The notes beneath the pieces are model-generated. The model made no database searches and was not told the origin of the DNA. It saw only the letters and a program-made list of their open reading frames with translations. Positions 44,222 to 53,283 of a stretch of 64,000 nucleotides of DNA are shown one piece after another; within the stretch, counting starts at the first letter, position 1, and every line of letters starts with the position of its first letter. A program made the position numbers and the translations under genes. The stretch comes from Comamonadaceae bacterium (GTDB lineage Bacteria > Pseudomonadota > Gammaproteobacteria > Burkholderiales > Burkholderiaceae_C): positions 62,001 through 126,000 of the forward strand of contig JAIYBB010000004.1 of NCBI GenBank assembly GCA_027488735.1, given 5' to 3'.

Positions 44222-46801
44222 CTATGCCTGCTCCGCCACCCGCTTGCTGATATGCGCCAGTGCTTCTTCCACTTGGTCTATCAATATCAAACACAAATCG
44301 CCGGGGTTTAATTTGTCAAGCGCATAGTCGATGGCGATGAACTCACCTTGTATTTCCGCAATGTCGCGGGTCAGCGTGGCGTCTTTCAAACCCTGGCGTA
44401 ACAGCGCGATCACTTCGCCATTAGCACGCCCCCTTTGGCAGGCGTCCTCAAACAGCACCACGCGTTCAAATGCATCCCCGATCACCCGGGTTTGCTCGCG
44501 AATATCTTCATCGCGCCGGTCACCGGCACCACTGATGACCACGCTGCGTTCTTTGGCCGGTAAGTTGGTGACGGCTTGCACCAATGCTTTGATGGCGTCA
44601 GGGTTGTGTCCATAGTCGGCAATGATGGTGGCACCCTTGTAGCTGAACATATTGAAGCGACCAGGGACCGCCTCAGTATCACTGACAAAAGTGGACAAGC
44701 CTTGACAAATAGTGGTCCACGGCAAATGGATGGCCCATGCGGCACCGATAGCAGCCATGGCGTTTTCCACCTGAAAACCGATGGCGCCGTTTTGTGTCAA
44801 TGGCACTTCTTGCAAAGTCATACGCACTTGCTGTGCACCTTCTTGCGCGACGATATGTCCGTCTTGCACACACAGCACGCGCTTGCCTTGGGCGCGGTGC
44901 GTGGCCAACACCGGATGGTGCGGGTCAACTGCAAAAAACGTGACTTGCCCCGGGCAACTCGACGCCATGGCAGCGACCATCGGGTCGCTGGCGTTCAACA
45001 CGGCCATGCCATTGGGCGCGACGTTTTGCACGATGACGCGCTTGAGCACTGCCAAGTCTTCCACGGTGCTGATGTAGTTCAAACCCAGGTGATCGCCTGC
45101 GCCTATATTAGTGACGACAGCCACCTGACAGCGGTCAAACGCCAAGCCTTCGCGCAACATGCCGCCGCGCGCGGTCTCAAGCACCGCTGCGTCCACGTCC
45201 GGATGCATGAGCACGCTGCGTGCGCTGCGCGGGCCACTGCAGTCGCCGGTGTCGAGTTGCAAACCGTTGACAAACACGCCATCGGTGTTGGTCATGCCGG
45301 TGCGTAAACCGCTGGTGCGCAAGAGGTGCGCGCACAAACGCACTGTGGTGGTTTTGCCGTTGGTGCCGGTGACGGCAATCAACGGAATACGACCGTCTTG
45401 CCCGTTGGCAAACATGGTGTCGATGATGGCGCTGCCGACATCGCGGCCCTTGCCGAAGGAGGGTTGCAAATGCATGCGCAAACCGGGTGCGGCGTTCACC
45501 TCAACGATGCCGCCATTTTGTTCTTCCAAAGGCTTGATGACTGATTCACACACCACGTCCACACCACACACATCCAGGCCGACCATTTGCGCGGCCATGA
45601 CCGCACGCGCTGCCACCTCGGGGTGCACGTCGTCGGTCACGTCGGTGGCAGTGCCGCCGGTAGACAAATTGGCGTTGTTGCGCAACACCACCCGTGTCCC
45701 TTTGAGCGGCACGCTGTCGGCATCAAAGCCTTGCTCTTTCAAGCGCGCCACGGCAATGTCGTCAAAGCGGATTTTGGTGAGCGATGTGGCGTGACCGTCG
45801 CCACGGCGTGGGTCTGCATTGACTTTCTCAACCAATTGACGCACGGAGGATGTGCCGTCGCCCACCACCAACGGCGGTTCACGGCGTGCAGCGGCGACCA
45901 TGCGGTCACCGACCACCAGCAAACGGTAATCGCTGCCCGGCAAAAAACTCTCGACCATGATGTCGTCGCGGTATTCCAACGCGTTGTTGAATGCCTGCAT
46001 CACTTCTTCGCGGGTGCGGATGTTGACCACCACCCCTTTGCCTTGGTTGCCGTCGCGCGGTTTGACCACCACAGGCAGGCCAATGTCTTGTGCTGCCGCC
46101 CACGCGTCTTCTGCGCTGTGCACAGGACGGCCGCGCGGCACGGGGACGCCTGCGGCCATCAACAGTTTTTTGCTGAGTTCTTTGTCTTGCGCGATGGATT
46201 CGGCGATGGCGCTGCTCGCATCTGTTTCCGCAGCTTGTATGCGACGTAGTTTGCTGCCCCAACCGAATTGCACCAAGCTGGCATCGGTGAGTCTGCGAAA
46301 TGGAATACCACGGGCCAATGCAGCGTTCACGATGGCTCCAGTGGAGGGTCCAAGGCGAATGTCTTCGTCTAGTTCGCGCAAGGTGTTCAATGCTGCGTCC
46401 ACATCAAAGTTGCCAGATGTGAAGGCGGCTGTGCAAAGTTTCTCAGCCAGTTGCATCGCAAGCTTGCCAACATGCTCTACCGAGTACTCGACCACCACTT
46501 GAAACAATCCTGCCTCAGGAGTGGGTGTGGTGCGGCTGAATGTCACTGGGCATCCAGCTTGTATTTGCAAATGCAATACCGTGGCCTCTAGTGCATGGGC
46601 CATGCCCAACTGTGCGTCGCTTTCGGTTGGTTGTAAACGACCTAAACCAGGGAACATGTGTCGCAGGCGTTTTTCGTAGGCTTGCTGATCTGCACTCAGA
46701 TCACTCTCAAGACCGGGCGTGCAGCGCACCATGGCTTCGATGGCGGTATGGCGCGTCCACAAATTGGGGCCGCGCAGTGCGCGAATGCGGGTGACTTCCA
46801 T
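44222..46801 (-). CDS. cphA: Cyanophycin synthetase (CphA1-type)
   Basis: An 859-residue enzyme polymerising Asp and Arg into cyanophycin, a nitrogen and carbon store. Three parts: an N domain (1-160), an ATP-grasp domain (about 165-465; VVVKPRDGNQGKGV at 244-257) that adds Asp, and a Mur-ligase-like domain with the P-loop GTNGKT at 479-484 and a late VPGRFNMF and YGHNPDA that adds Arg. Both ATP sites look intact. The N-domain metal motif HxxEH is HALEA here (His69, Glu72, Ala73), one His short. The ATG overlaps the upstream synthetase stop (TGATG). Confidence 0.95.
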   Translation of the reverse strand: MEVTRIRALRGPNLWTRHTAIEAMVRCTPGLESDLSADQQAYEKRLRHMFPGLGRLQPTESDAQLGMAHALEATVLHLQIQAGCPVTFSRTTPTPEAGLFQVVVEYSVEHVGKLAMQLAEKLCTAAFTSGNFDVDAALNTLRELDEDIRLGPSTGAIVNAALARGIPFRRLTDASLVQFGWGSKLRRIQAAETDASSAIAESIAQDKELSKKLLMAAGVPVPRGRPVHSAEDAWAAAQDIGLPVVVKPRDGNQGKGVVVNIRTREEVMQAFNNALEYRDDIMVESFLPGSDYRLLVVGDRMVAAARREPPLVVGDGTSSVRQLVEKVNADPRRGDGHATSLTKIRFDDIAVARLKEQGFDADSVPLKGTRVVLRNNANLSTGGTATDVTDDVHPEVAARAVMAAQMVGLDVCGVDVVCESVIKPLEEQNGGIVEVNAAPGLRMHLQPSFGKGRDVGSAIIDTMFANGQDGRIPLIAVTGTNGKTTTVRLCAHLLRTSGLRTGMTNTDGVFVNGLQLDTGDCSGPRSARSVLMHPDVDAAVLETARGGMLREGLAFDRCQVAVVTNIGAGDHLGLNYISTVEDLAVLKRVIVQNVAPNGMAVLNASDPMVAAMASSCPGQVTFFAVDPHHPVLATHRAQGKRVLCVQDGHIVAQEGAQQVRMTLQEVPLTQNGAIGFQVENAMAAIGAAWAIHLPWTTICQGLSTFVSDTEAVPGRFNMFSYKGATIIADYGHNPDAIKALVQAVTNLPAKERSVVISGAGDRRDEDIREQTRVIGDAFERVVLFEDACQRGRANGEVIALLRQGLKDATLTRDIAEIQGEFIAIDYALDKLNPGDLCLILIDQVEEALAHISKRVAEQA

Positions 46802-49005
46802 CAGGCGTTTTTCCTTGCTAGGTCAATATTGGCGATGGCCGCGGGTTGCCCGTAGTTTTTCAAACCAGCGCGAATCAAGTCGGGTGTCATGTCCAGCGCC
46901 CAAGCCACTGCCACTGAAGCAAGCAGATTGTGCGTGCTTAGCTTGCCGTCGCTCAGGTGTTTGGCGATGGCCGGAAAATCCAGTTGCAGCAAACTGTGTT
47001 CATGTGTGCCGCGAGACATCATCACCTGGCCGTTTGAAAAATACACAGCGCGTCCTTGTTTTGCCAAATGTGCTTGTATGCAGGCGTTGTGCGCATCGTT
47101 GGCGTAATAAATGACTTCTCCATCGCACAAATCGGCCAGTTCAACCACGGCTTCATCTTCGGCGTTTAGCACGGCAGCGCCCTCGGGCAACACCAGGTCA
47201 ATTTGGGTGCGCACCACGCTACGCACTTGCTCGGGCGTGAGGATGTCGTGGTCTTGCAAGCCGATGTGGTCCGGCATGTCGGTGAGCACCCCGACATGGC
47301 AGCGGTCATAAGGCAAGCCTTCTTCTAACACTTGCAGTGGCGTGTTTTCAAACACGGCTGCGTCCAACGAGCGGTTGATCAGCAAACGCTGACTGGCTTC
47401 AAACACCCGTGCGTCTTTCGGATCAACCAAGCGTTGGTTCATGAAAAGACCACGCGATGACGCCAACCCCGTGCGCTTGCCGGACAAATGGATCAGCCAA
47501 TTGACCAGATGCGCCAGTTCTGTGGTGTGGTTGCGCCCCATGATGCCCACCACCGGAATGCGCGTGGGTTGTTTGGCGTCAAATAAATGCGCAACGATGT
47601 CTTTGCCTACCGGTCTTGGTTTGCCAATGGCAGGTTTCAAATGCATGAGCAAGCCCGGGCCTGCGTTAACCTCAACCACCGCGCCACCTTGCTCGTGCAA
47701 GGGTTTGCCAATGTCTTGTGCCACCAAGTCAATGCCAGCGATATCTAAACCGACCACACGTGCTGCCAGCACCACCAGAGCAGCGACTTGCGGGTGTACG
47801 TTGTCGGTGACATCAATGCCCATGTTGCCGGTGCGCTGCACCACAACCACACGGTCTTTTGCGGGAATGCTTTGAGCCCCTAGTCCCTGGCGTTGCAATT
47901 CAAGCACGGCAGTGGGGAGGTCATTTAATCGAATGGTGTCCAGCGGATAGTCTTCTTCTTCGCCGCGTCTTGGGTCAGAGTTGATTTGCAATTCAATCAA
48001 TGCTTCAACCGTGTGCAAGCCGTCACCAACAATGCGCGCGGTTTCGCCGCGTGAGGCTGCCACGACTTGGTTGCCGACCACCAGCAGCCGGTGCTCATCA
48101 CCCGGAATAAAGCGCTCGACCATGACATCGGTGCCTTCGCGTTGCGCCACCAAAAACGCGGCCTCAATGTCTTCACGTTGGCGCAAGTCCAGCGCCACGC
48201 CACGGCCATGGTTGGCGTCGGTGGGTTTGACCACCACCGGCAGACCGATGTCTTGCGCCACTTCCCATGCCTCATGCGAAGAATTCACCACCTCGCCTGC
48301 GGGAATAGGAACACCGCATTGGCTGAGTAACGATTTGGTCAGGTCTTTGTCGCTAGAAATACTTTCAGCAATGGCACTGGTGCGATCGGTTTCAGCGGTC
48401 CAAATGCGCCGCTGGAACGACCCGTAGCCGAGTTGCACCAAATTGCCCGAGGTCAGCCTGATGGAGGGGATGCGAAGGTCGGTGGCGGCATCCACAATGC
48501 ATGCAGTGCTTGGCCCCAAGCACAGGCGGTCGACCAAACCTTTGAGTTTGCTGACAGTGTCTTTGAGGTCAAACGCGGTGTTGTTGATGGCCGCCATCAC
48601 CAAGTCGCGGGCAGCGAGCATGCTTTCTTTGCCCACTTCCTCCTGACGGGTGCGTATCACGACTTTGTAGACACCGCGTTGACTGGTCTCACGCGCTTTG
48701 CCAAAACCCACTTGCATGCCCGCCAAGGTTTGCAATTCAATCGCCACGTGTTCCATGATGTGTCCGCACCATGTGCCTTCGTTGAGACGTTGTAAAAATC
48801 CGCCGCGCTCACCTATGCCGCATCGGTGCTCGACCATGCCGGGCAACCAAGCATTTAAACGTTCGACAAAACCGGGCAGTGTGTGTGAGGGGTGGTCTTC
48901 CAACTTACCTAAGTCGACCCAAGCTTCTATGACAGGTCGGTAGGTCCATACATTGGGGCCGCGCAAATAACGCATGCGCAAGATGGCGATATCAGGAAAT
49001 GTCAT
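46801..49005 (-). CDS. Short cyanophycin synthetase (CphA2-like)
   Basis: A 734-residue relative of the downstream CphA1. The N domain keeps the metal motif HIMEH (His82, Glu85, His86; GHIMEHVAIELQ). The ATP-grasp domain is intact (VVVKPTDANHGRGV at 257-270). The Mur-type P-loop is degraded to GIMGRNHTTE (487-496), lacking the Lys, and the protein ends about 125 residues early, without the C-terminal Mur domain. CphA2 of cyanobacteria, which lacks the C-terminal domain, is known to join preformed beta-Asp-Arg dipeptides; that this protein does the same is inferred. Confidence 0.9.
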   Translation of the reverse strand: MTFPDIAILRMRYLRGPNVWTYRPVIEAWVDLGKLEDHPSHTLPGFVERLNAWLPGMVEHRCGIGERGGFLQRLNEGTWCGHIMEHVAIELQTLAGMQVGFGKARETSQRGVYKVVIRTRQEEVGKESMLAARDLVMAAINNTAFDLKDTVSKLKGLVDRLCLGPSTACIVDAATDLRIPSIRLTSGNLVQLGYGSFQRRIWTAETDRTSAIAESISSDKDLTKSLLSQCGVPIPAGEVVNSSHEAWEVAQDIGLPVVVKPTDANHGRGVALDLRQREDIEAAFLVAQREGTDVMVERFIPGDEHRLLVVGNQVVAASRGETARIVGDGLHTVEALIELQINSDPRRGEEEDYPLDTIRLNDLPTAVLELQRQGLGAQSIPAKDRVVVVQRTGNMGIDVTDNVHPQVAALVVLAARVVGLDIAGIDLVAQDIGKPLHEQGGAVVEVNAGPGLLMHLKPAIGKPRPVGKDIVAHLFDAKQPTRIPVVGIMGRNHTTELAHLVNWLIHLSGKRTGLASSRGLFMNQRLVDPKDARVFEASQRLLINRSLDAAVFENTPLQVLEEGLPYDRCHVGVLTDMPDHIGLQDHDILTPEQVRSVVRTQIDLVLPEGAAVLNAEDEAVVELADLCDGEVIYYANDAHNACIQAHLAKQGRAVYFSNGQVMMSRGTHEHSLLQLDFPAIAKHLSDGKLSTHNLLASVAVAWALDMTPDLIRAGLKNYGQPAAIANIDLARKNA

Positions 49006-49089
49006 GAGGGTAAGACTTGTGTGTGCGGAGCAAGAAACTGGGAGTGAGGCAGGGTTAGAATGGTTTCACTGTAGGTCATCATAAAAAGA

Positions 49090-51378
49090 ATGAATATTCC
49101 CTCTCAAGTTGCGCCAGTGCTGCTGGATGTGCCAGCCTTGTGGCGTCGGGAACTGCAGCTTCAATTGACATCAGAAGAAAACGTTCTAGCTTGGCTGGAG
49201 GTTGACCTCGACGCCCGATTGTATTTCGCTAACAGCTTGCTGGTTCTGACGGCTGAACGGCTGATTTGGTGTGTTTCTGATGTGCAAGATGTTTGGCACA
49301 GTTTGCCTTTGCTTGCGACATGCCGCATGGAATTGTCTGACCATGCAGGCGTGGGACATTTGCGGTTGCTCGATTCACAGCAGCAACTGGCTGATTGGCG
49401 CTTTACCTTGGGCCGCAACCTGCAAGCCAGTGCATTGCTGACCCGCTTTAACCAACGCATGTCGGGACAAACTGAAGGTGTGGCGCTTACTTGGTGTGAG
49501 GCATGTCATGCGCCATTGGACAGCGCAGATGCAAGCTGTCGCAGCTGCGAGCTGGCGCAAGAAGAGACACCGGTATCGACTTGGAGTTTGTTTCGCTTGT
49601 GGCGCTTTGCCAAGCCTTACCAAGGCCAGTTATTTTTGGGTTTTTGCTTGACATTGGCTTCAACCGCTGCCACCTTGGTTCCGCCCTATCTGACCATGCC
49701 TCTCATGGACGATGTATTGATTCCATTTCAAAACGGACAGCAGATCGATACCTCTTTGGTCACCATGTATTTGGGGGGCTTGTTGGGCGCGGCATTGTTT
49801 GCATGGGGATTGGGCTGGTTCAAAACCTACGTGCTGGCTTTGGCGTCAGAGCGTATCGGTGCCGACTTGCGGTCCACCGCCTATGAGCATTTGTTGAAGC
49901 TTTCTTTGGAATATTTTGGCGGTCGCCGCACGGGCGACTTGATGACGCGTATTGGCAGTGAGACCGACCGCTTGTGCGTGTTCTTGTCTTTGCATCTACT
50001 CGACTTCGCCACCGACGTGTTGATGATTTTGATGACGGCCATTATCTTGTTCAGCATCGACCCGTGGCTGGCTTGTGCCACCTTGCTGCCGTTGCCATTC
50101 ATTGCGTGGTTGATACATATCGTGCGTGACCGCTTGCGAACTGGTTTTGAAAAAATAGATCGGGTTTGGTCTGAATTGACCAATGTCTTGGCCGACACCA
50201 TCCCGGGTATCCGCGTGGTCAAAGCATTTGCCCAAGAGCAACGCGAAGCACAGCGATTTCAAGAGGCCAACAAGCACAACCTGGCGGTCAATGACCGCCT
50301 CAATTTTTTATGGTCATTGTTTTCTCCAACCGTAACCTTGGTCACTGAAATCGGTTTGTTGGTGGTGTGGGCATTTGGTGTTTGGCAAGTCGCGAATCAC
50401 CAAGTCACGGTAGGTGTATTGACCGCATTTCTCGCCTACAGCACACGGTTTTATGCCCGGCTTGACGCCATGAGTCGCATCGTGTCACACACACAAAAAG
50501 CCGTTGCAGGAACCAAGCGCATCTTTGAAATTTTGGACCATGTCTCCAGCGTGCCCGAGCCTGTCAACCCGGTGGCCTTGCCTGAAGTGGTGGGTCGCAT
50601 ACAAATCAGCAACGCCGGTTTTCGCTATGGCAACCGTGCGGTGATCAAAGACCTGACGCTAGACATTGCCCCTGGCGAAATGATTGGTTTGGTGGGACAA
50701 AGCGGTTCAGGTAAAAGCACTTTGGTGAATTTGATATGCCGCTTTTACGACCTGAGTGAAGGAGCGATCCGCATAGACGGTATCGACATCAGAGACATAC
50801 GCATTGCAGATTACAGGCGCCATATTGGTTTGGTATTGCAAGAACCTTTTTTATTTTTTGGCACCATCGCTGACAACATCGCTTATGGAAAACTTGGGGC
50901 TTCGCGTCAAGAGATTGTCGCCGCGGCCAGGGCTGCGCATGCCCACGAATTTATTTTGCGCCTGCCGCAGGGCTACGACTCATTGGTGGGCGAACGCGGA
51001 CAAGGGCTGTCGGGTGGAGAGCGTCAGCGCATCTCCATCGCGCGCGCTTTGCTGATTGACCCTCGCATATTGATCATGGACGAAGCGACATCCTCGGTGG
51101 ACACTGAGACCGAGCAAGAAATTCAAAAGGCGCTAGACAATTTGGTGCGTGGGCGCACCACCATCGCGATTGCCCACCGTTTGTCCACCTTGCGCCGCGC
51201 CGATCGATTGGTGGTTATGGAGCATGGTCAATTGGTAGAGCAAGGGCAGCACGATGAACTGCTGGCCAGTCAAGGCGCTTACTGGCGTTTGTACGAAGCG
51301 CAGGCGCGCCAAAAGCAAGCCGAAGAAATGGGTTTGACACTCGGCACGCTCAAGGAGCATAAGGAGCACAAGGTATGA
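49090..51378 (+). CDS. ABC exporter with N-terminal zinc ribbon, cyanophycin-associated
   Basis: A 762-residue half-transporter (TMD plus NBD). Residues 1-130 form an extra cytosolic domain with a pattern (LVLTAERLIWCV at 51-62) like bacterial PH-type domains. Four cysteines in CEAC (136-139) and CRSC (150-153) make a likely zinc ribbon. The membrane domain runs about 175-490. NBD: Walker A GQSGSGKST (about 537-545), signature LSGGERQ near 640, Walker B ILIMDEATS near 660, H-loop near 693. It is divergent from cphA genes and overlaps the DUF1854 gene by four bases. The substrate is unknown; the link to cyanophycin rests on position and on such genes being recurrent beside cphA pairs. Confidence 0.9.
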   Translation: MNIPSQVAPVLLDVPALWRRELQLQLTSEENVLAWLEVDLDARLYFANSLLVLTAERLIWCVSDVQDVWHSLPLLATCRMELSDHAGVGHLRLLDSQQQLADWRFTLGRNLQASALLTRFNQRMSGQTEGVALTWCEACHAPLDSADASCRSCELAQEETPVSTWSLFRLWRFAKPYQGQLFLGFCLTLASTAATLVPPYLTMPLMDDVLIPFQNGQQIDTSLVTMYLGGLLGAALFAWGLGWFKTYVLALASERIGADLRSTAYEHLLKLSLEYFGGRRTGDLMTRIGSETDRLCVFLSLHLLDFATDVLMILMTAIILFSIDPWLACATLLPLPFIAWLIHIVRDRLRTGFEKIDRVWSELTNVLADTIPGIRVVKAFAQEQREAQRFQEANKHNLAVNDRLNFLWSLFSPTVTLVTEIGLLVVWAFGVWQVANHQVTVGVLTAFLAYSTRFYARLDAMSRIVSHTQKAVAGTKRIFEILDHVSSVPEPVNPVALPEVVGRIQISNAGFRYGNRAVIKDLTLDIAPGEMIGLVGQSGSGKSTLVNLICRFYDLSEGAIRIDGIDIRDIRIADYRRHIGLVLQEPFLFFGTIADNIAYGKLGASRQEIVAAARAAHAHEFILRLPQGYDSLVGERGQGLSGGERQRISIARALLIDPRILIMDEATSSVDTETEQEIQKALDNLVRGRTTIAIAHRLSTLRRADRLVVMEHGQLVEQGQHDELLASQGAYWRLYEAQARQKQAEEMGLTLGTLKEHKEHKV

Positions 51379-51842
51379 GCCGCGAGGCATTCGAGCTGAG
51401 TTTGTCCGAGCAAGGCCATTGGCAATTGCGTTTGCATCAGGTGTTGTACCAACCCGTGGTGGTGGTGCGCGCATTCCCGATTGGGGCGCCCGATGAAGCG
51501 GTGTCTATTTTGGACACAGACGGGCATGAGCTATTGTGGTTGGCCGAGCCTTTGACCTTGCCCGAAGCACAAAAACAATCGGTTTTTGCTGCGCTGCAAG
51601 CCCGTGAATTCATGCCTGAAATTCAACGCGTGGACTGTGTCAGCAGTTTTTCAACCCCATCGATTTGGACAGTGCAAACCCACCGTGGTGTGACGCAGTT
51701 TGTGTTGCGTGGCGAAGAAGATATTCGCCGTATCAGTGCCAAAACGCTGATCGTGGCCGATGAGCACGGCGTGCAGTTTTTGATTCGTGATTTACCTGCG
51801 CTAGACCGCTACAGCCGCAAGTTACTGGATCGCTTTTTATAA
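51375..51842 (+). CDS. DUF1854 protein, cyanophycin-associated
   Basis: A 155-residue cytosolic protein matching DUF1854: the middle reads HELLWLAEPLTLPEAQK, the C terminus RRISAKTLIVADEHGVQFLIRDLPALDRYSRKLLDRF-like (about 118-155). The function is unknown. It is translationally coupled to the ABC exporter (ATGA overlap), so it is probably its regulator or partner. I recall DUF1854 proteins as recurrent neighbours of cphA genes. Ends 32 bases from the convergent capA-like gene. Confidence 0.85.
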   Translation: MSREAFELSLSEQGHWQLRLHQVLYQPVVVVRAFPIGAPDEAVSILDTDGHELLWLAEPLTLPEAQKQSVFAALQAREFMPEIQRVDCVSSFSTPSIWTVQTHRGVTQFVLRGEEDIRRISAKTLIVADEHGVQFLIRDLPALDRYSRKLLDRFL

Positions 51843-51874: not shown

Positions 51875-52861
51875 TCATTTATTTGACACGCACGCACGAG
51901 AAATTTTTTCACCGCGCGTCCAGCAAGGACTTTTTGTATCGTTGTCCACAGAAGGCAAGCCTTCCATATCGATACGAACAGGCAAGGTGTCAAAACGGGT
52001 GACGCCACGTTTGTCCAAATACAGTTTTAACAACCAAGCTTGACGCTGAAATTCATTGTCGGTTTCTTTCATGACAAAGTTGCCAACGCTGAAGATCACT
52101 GGCTTGCCTTTGTAAATTGAAATATCTTGCGTGACATGCGGATGACCACCGATGACCGCATCGGCACCTGCGTCAATCATGCGTTGTGCAAGCAAACGTT
52201 GTCTGGCATTGGCTTGTCTTTCATTCTCCCAACCCCAGTGCATGATGGGTATGACCACATCTGCACGATGAAATTTTCTGGCCGCTTTGATGTCAGCCTC
52301 TACTTGCTGGTCCTCGCTCCAAGCCACACCGGGCGTGTTGTGACCGGCCTCAAAACTGCGCGGGTGAAATTCGTTGTAGCTCAGTACAGCGATACGCAAG
52401 CCGTGCCGCTGGAACACCAATGGCGTGTGTGCTTGTTTCAAGTTCATGCCGCCACCGACTTGTTCAAGACCGGAGCGCTCTATCAGTTGCAGCATGTCTG
52501 CAAATGCCTCGGGTCCAAAGTCGCCACTGTGGTTGTTGGCCAAGGCAACCGCATCAAAATGTTTTTTGACAACAGCAAGCACACGTGGATGTGCTTTGAA
52601 CGTGTATACCTTGTCCCCGGCTTGCCCCAAAGTTGACACCACACATTCAAGGTTGGCGATGCGAATATCCCCGTTCTTCAAGTACGTCTCAAATTCAGCA
52701 AACGGGTCACCACCTTGCGCAATCAGTTCTCCTGCGGAGTCGTCCAACACGGTGTCTCCCGCAAACACCAAACTAACTTCTTGCGTGGCATGTGCGCCCA
52801 AGGCAACACCCATCGAAACGATCAAGCCCCATACCCATACCCATGGATGGCGTTTTTTCAT
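51875..52861 (-). CDS. CapA-family protein (PgsA-like)
   Basis: A 328-residue exported protein of the CapA/PgsA family, whose best-known member takes part in poly-gamma-glutamate capsule synthesis. The fold is calcineurin-like phosphoesterase: FAGDTVLDD, NLECVVS, LANNHSGDFG and GGHPHVTQD supply the metal ligands. A signal peptide of about 25 residues (after MKKRHPW) precedes EVSLVFAGD. The start at 52861 overlaps the upstream gene's stop by four bases. Whether it acts on a polymer is not shown. Confidence 0.88.
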   Translation of the reverse strand: MKKRHPWVWVWGLIVSMGVALGAHATQEVSLVFAGDTVLDDSAGELIAQGGDPFAEFETYLKNGDIRIANLECVVSTLGQAGDKVYTFKAHPRVLAVVKKHFDAVALANNHSGDFGPEAFADMLQLIERSGLEQVGGGMNLKQAHTPLVFQRHGLRIAVLSYNEFHPRSFEAGHNTPGVAWSEDQQVEADIKAARKFHRADVVIPIMHWGWENERQANARQRLLAQRMIDAGADAVIGGHPHVTQDISIYKGKPVIFSVGNFVMKETDNEFQRQAWLLKLYLDKRGVTRFDTLPVRIDMEGLPSVDNDTKSPCWTRGEKISRACVSNK

Positions 52862-53283
52862 GGCTTGATACCTCCCAACCAACAACGGTACATCAGTTCA
52901 CGCTCAATCGGACCGCCATAAATATGTTGCTCACCCGTCAGCAGTACAGCGTGGCGACTGGGCTTGAAGGGAGAAAAATACTTGGCCTCTTGCAGCAGCA
53001 CTGGGCGCGGCTCCTGTTGCAGATAGGTATAAATCAGCACGTGGTCCAATTTGCCGCGTGTGGCCGACATGACCACTTTGAACAAAAAGCGCTCGGCAAT
53101 GTCGACGGGCACCACCTCATAGGGCTCCGCCACCGGTGTGGCGTGCACCACCTGTGTGGAGCCCGCATACGTCACTTCGCAACGCAAAAAAGGGCTGGCA
53201 TAGGCCATGTGCGCTGCCATGAAACACCCCGCTAAACCGTAACGAAGCATGCGACTGGACCGCAGTGGTTTGTGGGTTTGCAT
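52858..53283 (-). CDS. Small exported protein preceding capA
   Basis: A 141-residue protein with a probable signal peptide ending near AYA-SPF (residues about 25-30), then a single domain with two cysteines (Cys35 in LRCEV, Cys134 in YRCWLGG) that could form a disulfide. I recognise no family. ATG at 53283; a start at 53250 (MLRYG) is possible. Its stop overlaps the CapA start by four bases, indicating a two-gene operon and probable functional pairing. Confidence 0.72.
   Translation of the reverse strand: MQTHKPLRSSRMLRYGLAGCFMAAHMAYASPFLRCEVTYAGSTQVVHATPVAEPYEVVPVDIAERFLFKVVMSATRGKLDHVLIYTYLQQEPRPVLLQEAKYFSPFKPSRHAVLLTGEQHIYGGPIERELMYRCWLGGIKP

Follow-up and report, generated by a model that had tools for sequence, protein, structure and literature searches.

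The window, by which we mean the whole stretch of 64,000 nucleotides that was analyzed, carries on its minus strand a tandem of two CphA-type genes, a short one (S) followed by a long one (L), with a one-base overlap between the S stop codon and the L ATG. Divergent from S lie genes for an ABC exporter and a DUF1854 protein, both of which bear a cyanophycin-metabolism-associated label in NCBIfam. The features of the locus are as follows.

46801..49005, minus strand: S, short CphA-type protein of 734 amino acids that retains the zinc hydrolase site of the N domain but not the synthetase sites
44222..46801, minus strand: L, long CphA-type protein of 859 amino acids; G- and M-domain sites intact, N-domain zinc site lost
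49006..49089, no strand: gap of 84 bases separating the start codon of S from that of the divergently transcribed ABC transporter gene
49090..51378, plus strand: ABC exporter, NCBIfam NF052233 'cyanophycin metabolism-associated ABC transporter' (1347 bits, cut-off 880)
51375..51842, plus strand: DUF1854 protein, NCBIfam NF052234, co-inherited with S and L

The open reading frame positions, lengths and motif states given for S and L in an initial annotation of this DNA were reproduced on re-reading. The 84-base gap is presumed to be a control region shared by S and the ABC gene, no promoter scan having been made. A PGA_cap/CapA neighbor (51875-52885) did not qualify as a fifth member of the module, since 2 of the 80 fetched regions and 1 of the 80 named loci contain it. 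The genome that contains the window is 2.5 Mb in size, and the nearest named matches of S come from Comamonadaceae MAGs (83% at best) and Limnohabitans. Against the curated CphA models, L exceeds the cut-offs of both TIGR02068 (975.9 bits, cut-off 850) and NF010623 (1232.9 bits, cut-off 877), whereas S falls below the cut-off of the former (717.0 bits) and above that of the latter, broader model (991.6 bits).

CphA1, which as a rule both synthesizes the nitrogen-rich peptide polymer cyanophycin and cleaves it to obtain starters, combines three sites, which are described in the accessible parts of two structural and biochemical studies. In the N domain, zinc is bound by C59, H79 and H83 with E82 as the base, and the domain acts as a slow endo-cutter whose products are preferably (beta-Asp-Arg)4 tetramers, not dipeptides (PMC9262961). 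In the G domain, N394 and R323 contact the beta-carboxylate and R458 the alpha-carboxylate, the S396 pocket takes the incoming Asp, and H267 and R309 handle the acylphosphate (PMC9427784); replacement of H267 by Ala kills G-domain activity (PMC9262961, PMC9427784). For the M domain, D585 and H586 are published (PMC9262961). The other M-site residues used here are those of Synechocystis CphA1 common to at least 95% of L proteins. Among these is K602, which we take to be the carbamylated lysine of Mur enzymes. The corresponding features of S are listed below.

48748..48822, minus strand: Cx19HxxEH metal site, S C62 to H86, equivalent to Synechocystis C59, H79, E82 and H83
48046..48048, minus strand: S G320, replacing aspartate-binding R323 (by alignment; role of R323 from PMC9427784)
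47820..47829, minus strand: S junction at which the aspartate-pocket loop STGG (396-399) is absent (role of S396 from PMC9427784)
47647..47649, minus strand: S L453, replacing aspartate-binding R458 (by alignment; role of R458 from PMC9427784)
47518..47547, minus strand: degenerate Mur P-loop GIMGRNHTTE, S residues 487-496

C62 and the HIMEH motif of S (residues 82-86) have the published Cx19HxxEH spacing, and the equivalents of C59, H79, E82 and H83 all align, together with the neighboring H57, F67, R70 and E87; HIMEH thus aligns with the published site, as the initial annotation had supposed. E82 and these four neighbors are invariant in 70 of 70 S proteins. Three of the four published features of the aspartate pocket are gone from the S of the window (R323 to G, the STGG loop, and R458 to L, in Synechocystis numbering), and N394, which most S proteins retain, is present. 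The initial annotation missed this loss in a G domain whose ATP-binding residues S has retained; K220, K261, E300, R309 and N452 are conserved in 70 of 72 S proteins and H267 in 67 of 72. The C-terminus of S falls near the start of the last Mur lobe of CphA1. This lobe is whole in six S proteins from six genera and partial in a seventh, and K602 is absent from all of them. Since the S proteins with a whole lobe also lack K602, we infer that the M domain decayed after the split and that the shortening was secondary. No Peptidase_S51 domain was found among the Pfam matches of S.

In L, two features define the opposite state.

46583..46597, minus strand: HALEA, L residues 69-73, degenerate remnant of HxxEH, the upstream Cys-ligand stretch being deleted
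45350..45367, minus strand: intact Mur P-loop GTNGKT, L residues 479-484

The stretch from C59 to R70 is deleted and position 83 carries no His. The initial annotation would have been refuted had the real zinc ligands lain elsewhere and been intact in L; this is not the case, as C59 and H83 are lost. The G site (R323, N394, S396 and R458) and the M site (the P-loop, D585, H586 and K602) are present in 69 of 69 L proteins. However, H267 of the G-domain phosphate-binding loop is Q in the L of the window and in 67 of the 69, so that the G activity of L itself is not certain. Among proteins other than S, H267 accompanies an intact N site in 20 of 20 cases, and Q accompanies a broken one in 76 of 78, although the Tatumella morbirosei enzyme, described as N-dead (PMC9262961), has His.

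To what extent the partition is general was surveyed with the N-domain profile PF18921, which also recovered the degenerate N domains of L. Among 399 genomes of the order to which the window belongs, 146 from 64 genera contain an N domain; all 142 genomes with TIGR02068 over its cut-off lie inside this set, and in a control set of 14 named genomes one, Deinobacterium, was positive. A class-wide search outside the order found 7 positives in 229 genomes, with a tandem in two, both of one family. We fetched 80 regions, representing all but two of the positive genera, plus 11 non-order or single-copy loci, and aligned 170 proteins: 72 S (from 62 genera), 69 L and 29 single or other CphAs including that of Synechocystis. 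S and L were sorted by whole-length BLAST to the proteins of the window, not by motif, and a site was called lost when at least one tested catalytic residue was changed or missing. Three loci (L041, L043 and L050) have an S row without an L row, owing to a contig edge, another contig or a split open reading frame, and were counted in S only; the separate class 'other' took in eight second-locus copies from a single genus along with seven single copies.

In all 72 S proteins the N site is intact and both the aspartate site and the M site are lost; in all 69 L proteins the N site is broken and the G and M sites are intact. The complementary losses proposed in the initial annotation, S keeping HxxEH and L keeping the Mur P-loop, therefore hold throughout the sample, and a partition repeated in every protein of both kinds indicates that the pattern in the window is not a matter of chance. 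The S pattern is absent from all 29 single or other CphAs, of which 20 have every site and 9 lack the N site only, the latter being one copy from Chryseobacterium and the eight second-locus copies. Outside the order, two S proteins keep the N site and have a damaged G site; in the one at locus L212 the G domain is ruined too and the N site alone remains. Gene order is fixed, with both genes on one strand and S first in 66 of 66 pairs (median gap 42.5 bases, range -10 to 275). A separate scan scored the motif in 80 of 80 S and in 0 of 74 L, counts that were excluded as evidence of frequency because one of the search patterns contained HxxEH. The carriers named in that scan, whose patterns favor the motif, include Limnohabitans, Acidovorax, Cupriavidus, Ralstonia, Achromobacter, Massilia, Collimonas, Thiobacillus, Sideroxydans and Methylotenera.

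A quick tree was built from the G domain after removal of the trait columns; its 77 rows comprise 25 S, 23 L and otherwise single or other copies. In it S forms one clade with SH-aLRT support of 100 and L one clade with support of 94 (not starred); one S row has a very long branch. As S and L are each a single clade, the division appears to be ancient and the two genes to have been passed on together. Mean identity within S (66 pairs) is 0.635 for the N domain, 0.664 for the G domain and 0.458 for the M core, and within L (66 pairs) it is lowest in the N domain (0.586), with 0.706 for G and 0.677 for the M core. Pooled pN/pS over 24 disjoint pairs gave 0.138 (N), 0.156 (G) and 0.194 (M core) for S, and 0.198, 0.110 and 0.134, respectively, for L. 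The shift in constraint between S and L is complementary and matches the site losses. These pN/pS values carry no confidence limits, the synonymous sites are strongly diverged, and the pairs came from the scan with the HxxEH pattern, which may have biased them toward conserved N domains in S.

An AlphaFold2 model of S (pLDDT 87.9) has CphA1 (PDB ID: 7WAE) as its best solved match, with a Z score of 43.7 and an rmsd of 3.4 over 709 residues, compared with Z scores of 26.4 and 23.7 for the CphA2 folds 7TA5 and 8FXH; a Foldseek search of the PDB agrees that CphA1 is the nearest fold. By sequence, S scores 467 bits against CphA1 and 191 against CphA2. The model of L was of moderate confidence (pLDDT 77.9, pTM 0.56) with a large rmsd over its full-length match, and for these reasons was left out of the site geometry.

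For genome-wide comparison we defined the S/L type as the PF18921-positive genomes minus the 11 with one full-length copy; those not fetched have no motif reading, and three of the 135 (G287, G337 and G358) show a single N-domain match in incomplete assemblies. DUF1854 (NF052234) is co-inherited with S/L in a near-absolute manner: 132 of the 135 S/L-type genomes carry it, against none of the 11 single-copy genomes and none of the 253 without CphA (0 of 264 others together), and the three negatives of the S/L type are fragmented or incomplete assemblies. In three genomes (G146, G183 and G205) DUF1854 lies hundreds of kilobases away from S, so that linkage alone does not account for the tie. At 69 of 71 other S loci the fetched region includes a homolog of the ABC gene, which at 63 of the loci is located immediately upstream of S in divergent orientation, and all 47 full-length named loci carry both ABC and DUF1854. 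A sequence search found no solved relative of DUF1854 (best E 0.32).

The cyanophycinase model TIGR02069 exceeds its cut-off in 11 of 11 single-copy CphA1 genomes (on the cphA contig within a few kilobases in eight, on another contig in three) vs 10 of 135 of the S/L type (Fisher p 3e-11, uncorrected for kinship). Four of these ten belong to one genus, where the gene is near a second, different CphA locus, and a fifth (G354) is of the same family; the remaining five have weaker matches (136 to 172 bits), in open frames 325 to 437 codons long and unlinked to S. In the genome of the window, searches with PF03575 and TIGR02069 found no cyanophycinase or S51 peptidase, and there was no match for IaaA or IadA and one marginal AstE/AspA-type match (25.1 bits). 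IaaA was found in 39 of 165 genomes (14 of the S/L type, 4 single-copy and 21 without CphA); totals per type are missing and no rate can be given. Absence of cyanophycinase in beta-proteobacteria is already published (PMC10206079, PMC5178258, PMC5670224): in the available part of one account a recognizable enzyme is present in 2.8% of beta-proteobacterial CphA1 genomes, and 'other, unknown cyanophycinase isozymes' are proposed (PMC10206079). A general rule that a tandem means no cyanophycinase was rejected, as it is contradicted by Tetrasphaera, for which two serial cphA genes with a neighboring cphB are described (PMC10687191).

A published experiment provides a parallel for the division of sites. 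According to the accessible parts of Sharon et al. 2022, CphA1 from Tatumella morbirosei (TmCphA1) lacks the N motif and is N-dead; without primer, N-dead CphA1 shows no activity, and it becomes active and primer-independent once a CphA1 inactive in both G and M (G-M-), or a lone N domain, is supplied in trans (PMC9262961). Engineered dimers tested without primer did somewhat less well with the N site on the opposite protomer than with it in cis (PMC9262961). We incline, with some reserve and in the absence of activity data for either protein, to the view that S and L are a natural split CphA1 in which S cuts in trans for the polymerase L. A duplicated CphA1 would have given rise to two halves with its activities divided between them. 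L would be the polymerase, adding Asp through the G domain and Arg through the M domain, and, having lost the N-domain zinc site, should be primer-dependent. S would be a dedicated endo-cyanophycinase that no longer makes polymer and cuts the product of L in trans, the resulting short oligomers priming further synthesis; it is the published trans activation of N-dead CphA1 that leads us to commit to this role. This view rests on the partition seen at each site, the one-clade grouping of S and of L, the constant gene order and the matching shift of selection, and the even expression of both copies in Accumulibacter (PMC10687191) counts in its favor. Zinc binding and polymer cleavage by S and Asp/Arg polymerization by L are inferred from sequence, and the catalytic activity of S, the need of L for S and their action on the same polymer are likewise inferences. 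What the cutting is for, be it priming, degradation or oligomers for export, remains open. To us the residual, conserved ATP-binding G domain of S suggests either a module for structure or partner contact, or a ligase whose acceptor has changed, and we cannot decide between these.

Several observations sit uneasily with the split reading. In S the G domain is under almost the same constraint as the N domain and has kept K220, K261, E300, R309 and N452 in 70 of 72 proteins, although a protein that only cuts would have no use for this; the Q of L at position 267 leaves its G activity in doubt; priming leaves the company that DUF1854 and the exporter keep with the pair unexplained; and homologs from Ralstonia eutropha H16 gave no detectable cyanophycin when overexpressed at home or in E. 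coli (PMC8560796, citing Adames 2013, as far as that account is accessible). The constraint on the G domain (pN/pS 0.156) and the conservation of its residues noted above, including H267, would be accommodated if S were a CphA2-like ligase of beta-Asp-Arg dipeptides or oligomers, working through the ATP-binding G domain that it has kept and an altered acceptor pocket. The truncated, dead Mur part also resembles that of CphA2, and such a pair has previously been named CphA1/CphA2 (in Sideroxydans; PMC5178258). We nevertheless think this improbable: the N motif, which CphA2 lacks (PMC9262961), is kept in every S; CphA1 is nearer in sequence and, less decisively, in fold; the two S proteins from outside the order keep the N site despite a damaged G site; and the whole last Mur lobe in S of six genera makes the truncation look secondary. 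The same evidence bears on the suggestion in the initial annotation that one protein polymerizes while the other cuts, primes or recycles. The first part is supported by the sites of all pairs, by the constraint shift and by the published trans experiment; recycling in the manner of CphA2 is not. A G fold conserved without its aspartate-pocket residues, and the fixed order of the two genes, would also suit a pseudoenzyme or scaffold that folds or assembles L, with a merely structural zinc in the N site. This seems to us an equally poor prospect, given that the base E82 and H57, F67, R70 and E87 are invariant in addition to the ligands, and that none of the 69 L proteins, which share the fold, retains the site.

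Whether S is instead the missing cyanophycinase, mainly mobilizing stored polymer rather than priming, is a question compatible with the split reading. The distribution of TIGR02069, the published 2.8% puzzle and the lack of any cyanophycinase in the genome of the window all point that way. On the other hand, the CphA1 N domain is slow and yields mainly tetramers, not dipeptides (PMC9262961, in the part available); the known downstream dipeptide step is missing too from the genome of the window, IaaA and IadA being absent and the marginal AstE/AspA-type match the sole exception; and the single apparent operon with L would switch cutting and making on together. We regard this role as unlikely, though not to be dismissed. 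Similarly tentative, and to be entertained rather than believed, is the idea that the S-L-ABC-DUF1854 set does not serve storage at all: L would build chains, S would trim them to oligomers of set length, and the exporter and DUF1854 would secrete them. Export would jointly explain why the pair is so tightly coupled to DUF1854 and the exporter, why cyanophycinase is usually absent and why cyanophycin reportedly went undetected in R. eutropha (PMC11362209, PMC8560796), and would also cover the absence of IaaA and IadA from the genome of the window.

Returning to the split reading, comparison with known systems indicates what is shared and what is new. CphA1 of Synechocystis UTEX2470 (7LG5, 7TXV) and Trichodesmium (7WAE) has the same fold, and S and L together hold all three of its published sites; unlike in CphA1, these are divided over two proteins, neither of which has all three, and L carries Q at 267. 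Closest in logic is the pair of Sharon et al. 2022, N-dead TmCphA1 with G-M- SuCphA1 or the lone SuCphA1 N domain, which like S/L joins an N-dead polymerase to a synthetase-dead, N-active partner (PMC9262961, from the accessible text); that pair was combined in the laboratory, whereas S/L was fixed by evolution and is encoded side by side. T. morbirosei CphA1 (7LGN) resembles L in lacking the N motif while keeping G and M. It and the Acinetobacter baylyi enzyme (AbCphA1, 7LGM) differ from L in having His at 267, and no S partner is mentioned for either in the portions of the literature available to us. CphA2 (7TA5, 8FXH) is like S in its shortened Mur part and ATP-binding G domain; unlike S, it has no N-domain metal motif, is cyanobacterial and repolymerizes dipeptides (PMC9262961, PMC10206079, both available in part).

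Tandem cphA genes and the missing cyanophycinase were already known. Group 1 clusters have been described as tandem cphA with an ABC transporter and no cphB (PMC10687191), Herminiimonas as having two cphA copies (PMC5670224), and Accumulibacter as expressing both copies evenly (PMC10687191). To judge from these descriptions, without sequence alignment, the Group 1, Sideroxydans and Herminiimonas clusters are evidently the S/L cluster; in the available parts of these accounts neither complementary site loss nor co-inheritance of DUF1854 is mentioned. We found no statement of the partition or of the DUF1854 tie in the literature searched, where DUF1854 is mentioned nowhere, and cannot exclude a remark in Adames 2013.

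S genes annotated as cyanophycin synthetase are, by inference, probably not synthetases, and expression of a single copy may fail. If the split reading is true, polymerase and primer-making hydrolase site have been naturally split into two genes in about sixty genera, mirroring a laboratory experiment, and with the two-gene set the making and cutting of chains may be controlled independently in polymer production. The pair is a candidate answer to two stated puzzles, namely the role of the second CphA copy and the handling of cyanophycin by beta-proteobacteria without a recognizable cyanophycinase, and the apparent split makes testable the so far unexplained fate of the polymer in these bacteria.

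Among 98 aligned CphA proteins other than the short, zinc-site-intact type (S), the state of the N-domain site was tracked by the G-domain residue at position 267 (Synechocystis numbering), with His267 present in 20/20 N-intact proteins, whereas Gln267 was found in 76 of the 78 N-broken ones, one Chryseobacterium copy among them. This pattern does not hold for the T. morbirosei enzyme, whose structure has been solved.

In the compared locus L043, the gene for the long protein (L) is split, for which either a frameshift or an assembly error could account:
L043 10932-13746, L gene as a pair of ORFs that overlap, 547 aa and 474 aa long

The ABC transporter of the window carries a CxxC...CxxC stretch within its first 157 residues (49090-49560), and this region, which precedes the membrane domain, gave no Pfam family match. 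The module is adjoined by a further gene:
window 51875-52885, minus strand, PGA_cap (CapA/PgsA-type) protein
Such a protein also lies near the module in L053, L082 and L177, and none was seen there in the other loci checked.

A CapA/poly-gamma-glutamate-type domain is fused to a CphA-like protein that lacks both the N motif and the Mur P-loop:
L193 2279-5293, CphA-like protein, Microvirga ossetica plasmid
An HlyD-family gene lies nearby.

Four genomes of one genus (g63), each also with a normal S/L tandem, contain a second CphA locus (L066, L068, L109 and L111). Each second locus lies close to a strong cyanophycinase match and encodes two extra CphA copies; in each copy the G and M sites are intact and the N site is broken.
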